Assembly (NCBI GenBank): GCA_021739695.1
Contig: JAIPBM010000001.1
Coordinates: 62,001-126,000, forward strand
Direction: 5' to 3'
DNA length: 64,000 bases
Source of the DNA: Flavobacteriales bacterium
GTDB lineage: Bacteria; Bacteroidota; Bacteroidia; UBA10329
How positions within the stretch are numbered: position 1 is the first letter of the stretch; each line of letters opens with the position of its first letter. A model generated the notes under the pieces. The model saw only the letters and a program-made list of their open reading frames with translations. It was not told the DNA's origin and searched no databases. The position numbers and the translations under genes are program-made. This document shows positions 11,179-15,282 of the stretch, one piece after another.

Positions 11179-11215
11179 TGATTTTAAATCTTGGAAGTAC
11201 GTTTTTAGATTGACC

Positions 11216-11593
11216 ATGAATTCAAATACGCTGAAGGACCGAACTAAGCAGTTTTCGATTGATACTGCCAAGTATTTGTACAAATTACCGAAGGACGCTA
11301 CCTTTTTGGCTTATCATAGGCAACTGGTGAGATGTTCGAGTTCGGTCGGTGCCAATTATCGGGCTGCCTGTAGAGCAAAATCTGACAGGGATTTCTTGAA
11401 TAAGCTGAAAATTGTTGAGGAAGAATGCGATGAAAGCATGTTCTTTCTCGAACTCATCAACGAACTAACTGACGTTGAAAACGAAACAAACATGCGGCTT
11501 CAAATGGAAGCAAATGAATTGCTATCAATCATTGTAGCCTCAATCAATACCGTAAGAAAACGTCTGAACTCTTCGAGTAACTCCAAAACTTAA
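11216..11593 (+). CDS. Four-helix-bundle protein (23S rRNA IVS-protein / Avd-like family)
   Basis: 125 residues from ATG 11216 (a TTG at 11210 is possible), mostly amphipathic helices. The conserved middle, VRCSSSVGANYRAACRAKSD, is the signature of the four-helix-bundle family. That family was first seen in proteins encoded by 23S rRNA intervening sequences and is related to Avd of diversity-generating retroelements. Such proteins form pentameric barrels with a basic surface that can bind nucleic acid; their free-standing function is not known. The gene lies in the his operon between inverted repeats and is probably transcribed with it. It has no known role in histidine synthesis. Confidence 0.88.
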   Translation: MNSNTLKDRTKQFSIDTAKYLYKLPKDATFLAYHRQLVRCSSSVGANYRAACRAKSDRDFLNKLKIVEEECDESMFFLELINELTDVENETNMRLQMEANELLSIIVASINTVRKRLNSSSNSKT

Positions 11594-13009: not shown

Positions 13010-13993
13010 ATGAAAACTGCTTTCGTTACAGGTGCCACAGGCTTTCTCGGCATCAATCTGGTTCAACAACTTTTAGCTGACGGTTGGCAAGTCACAGCTC
13101 TACATCGCAAAACTTCTGATCTTACTTATCTGAATCGGTTTGATGTGACCTTGGTTGAAGGCGCGATTACCGATTGGGAATCGTTGATGAAGGTTATGCC
13201 GGATTCGCCAGATGCAGTTTTTCATGTAGCGGCTAATACTTCCATGTGGTCGAAATGGAACGACCAACAGTTTCAAGACAATGTGATCGGCACTCGGAAT
13301 ATGGTGGAGATTGCGTTGCAGAAAAAGGCCAAACGATTCATTCATACTTCGTCCATTTCGGCTTGGGGGCATCATGATCATGAGATGGATGAAACCGAGC
13401 AATCGAATGCCATAAACAGTCCGGTGAATTACAACAAGACCAAGTATTTGGCGGAGTTGGAAGTTGATAAGGCGATTGCCAATGGATTGGATGCCGTGCT
13501 GGTTAATCCGTGCGACATTATGGGTCCGTACGATTCGCACAATTGGGCACAGGTAATTCAGGCGGTTTACAACAATGACGTGCCAGGAATTCCGCCCGGA
13601 AATGCAGTCATCTGCCACGTGTGCGACATTGCGCGTGCGCATATTTCGGCCTACGAAAAAGGAAGAACTGGTGAACGGTATTTGCTTGGCGGTCAGGATG
13701 TGACGCTCAAGGAGATTTTCAATACGATAGAGCGATTCATGGATAAGAAGGAATCGCAATTTGTGATGCCTAAGTGGGTGATGAAAGCTGTGATTCCGTT
13801 CTACACGCTTCAGTCAAAACTGAATGGAAAAGAACCGATTCTTACTCCAGAGAAGTTCATTGAATTGACCGTTCCAAAGCATGTGCGTTCGGGAAAGGCA
13901 ATTTCGGAACTGAACTACAGCATGTCGTCTTTAGAAGACTCGATACGCGATTCGTATGAATGGTTGAAGCAGGAAAACCTGCTGGCCCGATAA
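13010..13993 (+). CDS. NAD(P)-dependent epimerase/reductase, dihydroflavonol-4-reductase-like
   Basis: Extended short-chain dehydrogenase of 327 residues. The nucleotide-binding motif VTGATGFLGINL is at the N-terminus. An HTSSISAWG segment supplies the catalytic Ser, and VNYNKTKYLAE carries the Tyr-x-x-x-Lys pair. This subgroup includes dihydroflavonol reductase-like and aldehyde reductase-like enzymes; bacterial substrates are mostly unknown. It begins 31 bases after hisIE on the same strand and may be co-transcribed, but nothing ties it to histidine. The gene is followed by the structured region at 14011-14132, which contains a terminator-like hairpin. Confidence 0.85.
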   Translation: MKTAFVTGATGFLGINLVQQLLADGWQVTALHRKTSDLTYLNRFDVTLVEGAITDWESLMKVMPDSPDAVFHVAANTSMWSKWNDQQFQDNVIGTRNMVEIALQKKAKRFIHTSSISAWGHHDHEMDETEQSNAINSPVNYNKTKYLAELEVDKAIANGLDAVLVNPCDIMGPYDSHNWAQVIQAVYNNDVPGIPPGNAVICHVCDIARAHISAYEKGRTGERYLLGGQDVTLKEIFNTIERFMDKKESQFVMPKWVMKAVIPFYTLQSKLNGKEPILTPEKFIELTVPKHVRSGKAISELNYSMSSLEDSIRDSYEWLKQENLLAR

Positions 13994-14010
13994 CTGAAGC
14001 TTGCTACTTG

Positions 14011-14132
14011 AGCGCGTTAAGGATGGAAGCGACATCCTTTTTTCATTCACTTGCATTTCGAGGCCCTCAGTGACCGTTATGAAAAAAGATATAGCGGACA
14101 GCCTGACCCCGATTTTCTTCGGGGGAACGCCC
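14011..14132 (+). ncRNA. Candidate multibranched structured RNA (unclassified)
   Basis: Complementary segments nest into one closed fold. P1 is GCGTT (14013-14017) with AACGC (14126-14130). P2 is AAGGATG (14018-14024) with CATCCTT (14032-14038), loop GAAGCGA. P3 is TTTTTCAT-type pairing of 14039-14046 with 14079-14086 (8 bp), continued by TCACT/AGTGA (14047-14051 with 14069-14073). P4 is CCCCGA (14107-14112) with TCGGGG (14119-14124). The single-stranded joins carry distinctive GATATAGCGGACAGCCTGA. It follows the reductase stop by 17 bases and precedes an OmpA-type gene. It could be a 3'-end processing or terminator element, a cis-regulatory leader or a dispersed repeat. The pairings are seen; RNA function is inferred. 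Confidence 0.55.
14018..14043 (+). terminator. Hairpin with T-run after the reductase gene
   Basis: A 7-bp stem, AAGGATG/CATCCTT, with loop GAAGCGA is followed by a run of seven T (14037-14043). On its own it would be a moderate intrinsic terminator for the his/reductase transcript. It is also helix P2 of the larger fold described at 14011-14132. Confidence 0.55.
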
Positions 14133-14229
14133 AAATGGAAATTAACATGTTGGTGTTGAATACGAACAGGTTTTGTTCCAGCGAGCCGAAGGTGCTGGGG
14201 TAACTTTGAACGAATCTAAGCTCATATTC

Positions 14230-15282
14230 ATGTACACGCTATCCAAAAGACTTTTGATCATCTTCCTTCCTGCCATTTTGCTGACTTCGTGTGTGGCAGA
14301 AAGACGGTTTCAGGATGAGGTTTCTGCCAGAGCCAAGGCGGAGGAAGAGCGCGCAAGGCTTAAATCTGAGAATATTGACCTGAATGCGATGAATGCTGAC
14401 CTTACAGATCGGATGAAAGACTACGATCGGCAGTTGGTGCATTTAAGAAAAGACACTGCGGTGATGTCGACATCGTTGAATCGAATGACGATTAACTACG
14501 ATAAGTTGAACCAAACGTACGAGAAGCTTCTGGACCAAATGGGCAAGCTGCGCGAAGGAAATGCGGAGGATACCAAGCGACTAACGCGCGAATTGCAGGA
14601 TGCGCGTAAAGACATTCAGGTGGGCGAAGATGAACTGCGCGAATTGGAATTGACACTTGCCAAGAAGGAAGGTAATTTGGATGTTGTGGGAGCAGAACTG
14701 GAAAGATCTAAAGCGGAATTGGAGGATAAGCGATTGCAGTTGATGGCGCGTTCTAAGCGGATAAATGAACTGGAAGGCGTGTTGGCCAGAAAGGATAGTG
14801 CTGTGGTAGCTTTGAAGAATAATATTGCGAATGCATTGCTTGGTTTTGCCGATCAGGGATTGACGGTTGAGCAGAAGAACGGAAAGGTTTACGTTTCGTT
14901 GGAAGAGCAGTTGTTGTTCAAGTCTGGAAGTTGGGTTGTTGATAGCAAAGGAAAAGAGGCGCTCATCAAACTTGGTAAAGTGCTGCAAACGCAACCGGAA
15001 GTGGGGATTTTGGTTGAAGGACACACGGATAATGTTCCTTACGGAGGAAACGGAAACGTGGCCGACAACTGGGATCTTTCTGCAAAACGCGCTACTTCGA
15101 TTGTCAAACTGCTGATGGAGAACAGCTCCATCAACCCAACGCAATTGACCGCAGCCGGCCGATCGGAATACTTGCCGCTTGATTCTGCTGATACAAAAGA
15201 GGCTCGTGCTAAGAATCGTAGAACAGAGATCATTATCACGCCAAAATTGAACGAGTTGTTCAAGATTTTGGAGGGAAACTGA
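14230..15282 (+). CDS. OmpA-family peptidoglycan-binding lipoprotein
   Basis: From ATG 14230 the product is 350 residues. The signal peptide ends in lipobox LLTSC with acylated Cys21, so it is a lipoprotein anchored to a membrane. Residues 25-220 are a long charged heptad-like coiled coil. The C-terminal OmpA domain (about 225-340) contains LLFKSGSWVVD, VEGHTDNVPYGG and AKNRRTEI, whose Asp and Arg bind diaminopimelate in peptidoglycan. The layout suggests a spacer or tether between the envelope and the wall. The open frame extends 19 codons upstream, but the signal peptide fixes the start at 14230. Confidence 0.88.
   Translation: MYTLSKRLLIIFLPAILLTSCVAERRFQDEVSARAKAEEERARLKSENIDLNAMNADLTDRMKDYDRQLVHLRKDTAVMSTSLNRMTINYDKLNQTYEKLLDQMGKLREGNAEDTKRLTRELQDARKDIQVGEDELRELELTLAKKEGNLDVVGAELERSKAELEDKRLQLMARSKRINELEGVLARKDSAVVALKNNIANALLGFADQGLTVEQKNGKVYVSLEEQLLFKSGSWVVDSKGKEALIKLGKVLQTQPEVGILVEGHTDNVPYGGNGNVADNWDLSAKRATSIVKLLMENSSINPTQLTAAGRSEYLPLDSADTKEARAKNRRTEIIITPKLNELFKILEGN

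Follow-up and report, generated by a model that had tools for sequence, protein, structure and literature searches.

The structured element at positions 14014–14132 (+) of the window (the whole stretch of 64 000 nucleotides that was analysed) is almost certainly a copy of Flavo-1 (Rfam RF01705), an abundant catalogued element of Bacteroidota. We see about an even chance that Flavo-1 is a dispersed DNA repeat, similar to REPs and MITEs, which would be copied by a trans-acting factor recognising the fold of one DNA strand. A larger, covarying fold, avoidance of 5′ UTRs, the lack of a promoter of its own and the turnover of its sites turn what would have been an ‘unknown sRNA’ into a hypothesis of a structure-dependent DNA repeat that can be tested.

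Identity and fold of the element

RF01705 is the sole Rfam match in the 64 kb window, at 14007–14112 (+) with 53.2 bits (E = 1.1e-8) against a gathering cut-off of 42 bits. A reading made from the sequence alone had described a structured element here and suggested a comparison with Flavo-1, which was exactly right. The stretch is more stable than shuffled sequence (z of −2.5 as RNA and −2.7 as DNA), although homology is the stronger proof of a structured element. That reading had also suggested that the element might be uncharacterised; it is already catalogued as a family and is not new as such, and no paper on its function was found in the literature searched. In Weinberg et al. (2010; PMC2864571), Flavo-1 comes from Bacteroidetes and is not listed as cis-regulatory, and both Rfam and that paper file it as a likely noncoding RNA. 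The features of the region are as follows.

13010–13993 (+), upstream gene, NAD-dependent epimerase/reductase-like (putative, from the ORF list); its stop codon is 20 nt before the element
14007–14112 (+), match to RF01705, covering P2 only; P1 and P3 are outside the Rfam model
14014–14132 (+), complete extended Flavo-1, a three-way junction (cmsearch with model R1)
14014–14018 (+), P1 5′ arm GCGTT, the closing helix; partner 14126–14130
14020–14046 (+), P2 5′ strand (RNAalifold consensus, pair counts)
14047–14078 (+), variable apical part of P2 with an unrelated palindrome, TTCGAGGCCCTCAG, seen in other copies (comparison of 27, then 139 copies)
14079–14106 (+), P2 3′ strand, ATG-AAAAAA-GATATAGCGGACAGCCTGA (RNAalifold consensus, pair counts)
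14107–14124 (+), P3 hairpin CCCCGA-TTTTCT-TCGGGG (91% paired)
14126–14130 (+), P1 3′ arm AACGC, then CC; partner 14014–14018
14201–14208 (+), TAACTTTG, promoter motif of the Bacteroidota −7 type for the OmpA-family gene, 3′ of the element (from the sequence; kept in orthologues without the element)
14230–15282 (+), downstream OmpA-family gene (ORF list, orthologues in congeners)

The aligned copies, 80–160 nt in length, show that the conserved unit continues 3′ of where the Rfam model ends. P2 is a long imperfect hairpin in which 14020–14046 pairs with 14079–14104, the final GA of GATATAGCGGACAGCCTGA lying in the junction. Its 5′ strand runs through AGG, an A·G mismatch, UG, a GA-rich 3 × 3 internal loop, GC (half of a GC/GC step), a second 3 × 3 internal loop, AUC, a bulged C and a U-run that faces the A-run. 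GATATAGCGGACAGCCTGA had been taken as single-stranded, but it is the 3′ strand of P2. With DNA parameters the window sequence folds straight into the conserved P1–P2–P3 arrangement. With RNA parameters the minimum-free-energy fold of this copy includes a hairpin AAGGATG/CATCCTT, which had been proposed with the loop GAAGCGA; it is not conserved. Copies differ in the base that follows GAT: all four letters occur there, in step with the distant 3′ strand of P2 (GC, TA, AT and CG pairs), whereas the would-be partner of this base in the hairpin is still C in 90 of 92 copies. We reject the hairpin because the variable base follows its P2 partner while the hairpin partner stays constant.

Many copies have a second dispersed palindrome (TTCGAG..CTCAG type) within the apical loop of P2 and at times within P3 (window 14047–14078; L003, L005, L015 and L049), and the loops of Flavo-1 seem to harbour other repeats. 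In some copies the 5′ strand of P2 is interrupted close to the A·G mismatch by additional sequence that forms a hairpin, for example ACGGGCAAACCCGTGAGGTGCTACGCAG (L026, L112, L134, L136, L143 and L200, the last being the ompA site of congener G004).

Covariation

RNAalifold, run without a guide structure on 33 copies, returned exactly P1, P2 and P3, with double changes at 15 of 25 pairs. When 84 distinct copies from the genus were aligned by sequence anchors only, pairing was 94% in P1, 97% in P2 and 91% in P3, falling to 73% or less when the strands were slid by 1–3 columns (to 62% or less for P1), and several pairs surpassed all 500 shuffles, among them the third and fourth pairs of P3. The fifth pair of P1 is U–A in 54 and G–C in 26 of these copies, and the helix occurs as GCGTT/AACGC, GCGTG/CACGC, GCGCT/AGCGC, GCATT/AATGC and CCATG/CATGG; in P3 the whole hairpin is swapped between near-identical copies. 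The P2 mismatch is A·G in 73 and G·A in 13 of 92 copies.

Similar results were obtained further afield. Among 60 matches, the majority of which come from other genera and families, pairing holds in 97.4% of cells (99.7% in the 3′ arm of P1) and 204 cells carry double changes, against a shuffled mean of 48; having been made by fitting to the model, this alignment is biased to it, but the anchor-based counts agree. Compensatory change is seen even between orthologous copies (the rpsF site, in the home genome G000 and congener G001). Base pairing on the + strand is under selection. The covariance model and covariation test that had been suggested as a check thus yielded Bacteroidota homologues with compensatory changes in all three helices, and of the helices first proposed both GCGTT/AACGC, which covaries in the genus and in other lineages, and CCCCGA/TCGGGG were confirmed.

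Reach of the family

The window copy is one of 27 RF01705 matches in its own genome (4.24 Mb in 53 contigs). Congeners have 0 to 25 matches per genome, G007 being the one with none, and 35 of 296 genomes sampled from the phylum pass the RF01705 cut-off. The extended copies here mostly score 41–57 bits with RF01705, compared with 75–85 for the best Flavobacterium copies. R1, a covariance model of the full fold, was built from 33 copies that did not include the window copy; it finds that copy over the full model (1–91) at 14014–14132 (+) with 82.9 bits (E = 1.4e-17), and it has matches in 42 of the 296 genomes, a count obtained under a different threshold from the 35 of RF01705. Genome G151, from another family of the same class, has 54 copies by R1, and the Rfam search reported none there; ten of its loci tested with RF01705 score 29–37 bits, under the cut-off. 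P2 of this subtype carries GGAAAGCC...GGACTTGCAGCG. Neither the P1/P3 extension nor the low-scoring G151 subtype is covered by the Rfam model, and R1 provides a wider model for finding copies.

Named genomes were scanned for the 5′ half of Flavo-1, which gave at least 118 stretches, and in nearly all of the 80 readable loci the 5′ half is followed by P3 and an AACGC-type P1 arm; the same architecture is present in Flavobacteriaceae, Bacteroidales, Lentimicrobiaceae and Cytophagaceae. The strings that the sequence-only reading had named (AAGGAT...ATCC, TATAGCGGA and AACGCCC) are indeed found repeatedly in intergenic stretches across Bacteroidota. The window copy had no blastn match in plasmid and phage collections. 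Twelve IMG/VR contigs of putative viral nature (L390–L401) contain the 5′ motif, and several of these have a common long apical loop of ∼138 nt.

Position, orientation and promoters

Gene calls were simple longest-ORF calls. Of 113 copies in eight genomes, divergent genes flank 35 and convergent genes nine, ten overlap a predicted ORF and ten are at contig edges; with codirectional neighbours, 28 are sense and 21 antisense (23:14 is the ratio given for the genus). The genes beside the copies are unrelated housekeeping genes. The distance from the element to a stop codon is small, with medians of about 17–30 nt, and that to a start codon is ∼100 nt. Sense-to-antisense counts elsewhere are 13:21 for Rfam-type copies, 8:5 in G195, 18:22 at named loci and 4:17 in G151 (two sets, 2:10 and 2:7). 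A general antisense bias, suspected at first, was absent from the new sets except G151, where 17 of 21 codirectional copies are antisense; there is no consistent direction relative to genes, and the antisense bias is specific to the G151 lineage. Two complete genomes show no polarity with respect to the replication strand (18+/20− and 10+/12−, with the origin assumed to be near coordinate 1).

In the window, 69 nt separate the element from TAACTTTG on its 3′ side. The orthologous ompA promoter regions of five congeners have no Flavo-1, and the motif is retained, slightly altered, in congeners that lack the element. As TAACTTTG is 3′ of the element and is kept without it, the element is upstream of the ompA promoter and outside the leader. 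The same arrangement holds across the genus: of 45 sense cases, 32 have the −7 motif TAnnTT(T/C)G in the interval from the element to the start codon (shuffled mean 3.6, maximum 8), as do 20 of 32 divergent cases (mean 1.6 and maximum 6 after shuffling). The 100 nt on the 5′ side of the element show no enrichment in the genus (5 of 86, against a shuffled mean of 6.1). Enrichment in the non-genus sets is smaller and partly within the shuffled maximum; a strong promoter result is confined to the genus of the window.

Elsewhere in the window, an ORF at 11210–11593, between hisA-like and hisF-like genes of a histidine operon, resembles by eye a four-helix-bundle (S23-type) protein.

Turnover at orthologous sites

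Orthologous sites were found by using the beginnings of the downstream proteins as queries and were then read. The home genome shares Flavo-1 with G003 and G004 at the cysK site, with G001 and G008 at the rpsF site and with congeners at two further sites. At the atpD site the element is present in G004 and decayed in G001, and the ompA site of the window is also occupied in G004, where P2 carries an additional insertion. The site of an etfB-like gene has a copy in G008 and a 3′ remnant in G004, and that of a trkA-like gene a copy in G001 and a remnant in G004. The remaining orthologous sites are empty, including every site read in G007; the flanks at empty sites are too diverged to call target-site duplications.

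Copies within a genome that are 90–98% alike have flanks that are only ∼50% alike, no better than random, and the identity therefore ends at the borders of the element. No recent identical copies were found, the best pairs being 93% alike in the genus and 98% in G151. In most cases (cysK and atpD), orthologous copies resemble each other no better than copies picked at random from the two genomes, the exception being rpsF in G000 and G001; vertical inheritance, conversion and re-insertion are therefore inseparable at cysK and atpD. Overall, both copying and vertical inheritance have occurred.

Two other repeated or conserved sequences were seen near copies. Several congeners show strong conservation of CTGTCAGTTTGGCAGAC in a divergent promoter region (L014; orthologues L212, L213 and L050), and in two of these Flavo-1 is inserted beside it. 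A repeated palindrome, GGTTCGATGCATCGAACCC, adjoins the Flavo-1 remnant upstream of the etfB-like gene in G004 (L230) and is probably a separate repeat of that genome.

DNA or RNA

In alignment A2, 0.8% of standard pairs are G·U, compared with 6.6% in 12 tRNAs from the same DNA and ∼12% (manual count) in 12 cobalamin riboswitches from the same genomes. Among departures, G·U still outnumbers A·C (24:16 and 12:3), as for RNA. Refolding of 84 copies recovered 65% of conserved pairs with DNA parameters and 55% with RNA parameters; with DNA parameters the − strand refolded to 43%, and the + strand is also nearer to the conserved fold with RNA parameters. The controls gave 0.74 (DNA) versus 0.65 (RNA) for tRNA and 0.43 versus 0.65 for the cobalamin riboswitch; the refolding test is weak evidence because the tRNA controls also lean to DNA. 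On a transcript map of Flavobacterium psychrophilum (PMC9723704), Flavo-1 matches are sense or antisense and many are outside transcribed regions. Wobble depletion, orientation, promoter position and the transcript map favour selection on folded single-stranded DNA, each being non-decisive.

Alternative explanations

The sequence-only reading had suggested a dispersed RNA or an mRNA 3′ element. Flavo-1 is indeed dispersed, conserved and selected for its structure, but its action as RNA is not supported by promoter position, orientation or the divergent sites. An actual noncoding RNA or mRNA 3′ element in many copies, folded by read-through past the stop codon and acted on by a protein or RNase, is a less probable explanation that we nevertheless take seriously. 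Covariation with conserved GA-rich internal loops is what structured RNA typically shows, folding favours the + strand over the − strand with either parameter set, the upstream stop codon is close (median about 20–30 nt), and Rfam and Weinberg et al. (2010) class Flavo-1 as a likely noncoding RNA. However, antisense copies are overall as common as sense copies, the 35 divergent copies are in neither gene's expected transcript, the element has no promoter of its own, G·U pairs are very few and many F. psychrophilum copies are untranscribed (PMC9723704). A 3′-UTR role may still apply to a subset of copies. That the element is a 5′-UTR riboswitch or leader belonging to the OmpA-family gene, as its sense orientation upstream of that gene might suggest, has next to no chance of being correct: the promoter lies downstream of the element, here and across copies, five congeners do without the element and the neighbouring genes are unrelated. 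Promoter position, mixed orientation and site turnover together rule out such a switch and make an independent sRNA unlikely; the promoter test rejects the switch and an sRNA with its own promoter alike.

A bidirectional transcription terminator is very improbable. Its position just past stop codons and, as RNA, the AAGGATG/CATCCTT hairpin followed by a U-run look right for an intrinsic terminator; this hairpin is not conserved, however, and the excess of divergent over convergent sites (35 versus 9) is the opposite of what a terminator would need, and an intrinsic terminator was rejected. It is also rather unlikely that Flavo-1 is a BIME-like DNA site bound, to the benefit of the host, by a protein of chromosome structure or supercoiling that requires a cruciform to be extruded. 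This would agree with an orientation-neutral, intergenic position upstream of promoters, with partial retention at orthologous sites and with pairing kept in situ, but copy number varies from 0 to 27 inside one genus, the two complete genomes (with the origin assumed near coordinate 1) show no replichore bias, and free Watson–Crick exchange speaks against recognition of a duplex sequence.

Flavo-1 as a possible mobile DNA repeat

Under the dispersed DNA repeat that we favour, a factor acting in trans would recognise the fold formed by one DNA strand, and enzyme-driven copying would spread the element to new intergenic sites, where copies would persist, pass on vertically, change with compensation and decay. 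The copy numbers (27 here, 0 to 25 in congeners and 54 in G151) and the shared, lost or decayed sites support this explanation; against it, no mobilising gene was found. There is no Y1 transposase in the home genome, none of 20 Y1 loci has Flavo-1 beside it (flanks up to 1.5 kb, less at contig ends) and the high-copy genomes G109 and G163 are without a Y1 transposase. An identity as a RAYT/REP system was therefore rejected, and this genome offers no obvious RAYT-type Y1 transposase as the mover. The compensation at rpsF between G000 and G001 suggests that selection acts in situ; in the absence of gene conversion, a purely selfish repeat would have no need of it.

More tentatively, Flavo-1 may be a phylum-wide family of mobile DNA, subtypes under the Rfam cut-off such as the 54-copy G151 form included, with a single-stranded three-way junction that would be the target of an undescribed Bacteroidota enzyme other than a RAYT. 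Annotation pipelines that label Flavo-1 matches as sRNA genes may mislead.

Comparison with known systems

The element shares with Rfam Flavo-1 the imperfect hairpin P2, the AGCGG-type internal loops, the occurrence in Bacteroidota and the dispersion; it differs in that the Rfam model (76 positions) is without P1 and P3, and copies of the Flavobacterium type have AGC/GCU near their ends. REP and BIME sequences are likewise well established as dispersed, imperfect intergenic palindromes near 3′ ends that are orientation-neutral and in which the folding of one strand matters (see also the abstract of PMC3733652). Flavo-1, however, is a three-way junction of 80–160 nt rather than a palindrome of 20–40 nt, and no RAYT gene is present in the home genome or adjacent to copies elsewhere. 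REP/RAYT systems are recognised by palindromes of 20–40 nt with a GTAG or CGTC tag and by repeats that flank the RAYT gene. MITEs are recognised by a target-site duplication and by the terminal inverted repeats of a parent transposon. Like MITEs, BOX and RUP elements, Flavo-1 has unrelated flanks and both occupied and empty orthologous sites; neither terminal inverted repeats matching a known transposase nor a target-site duplication was made out at the sites read, and its internal fold covaries strongly.
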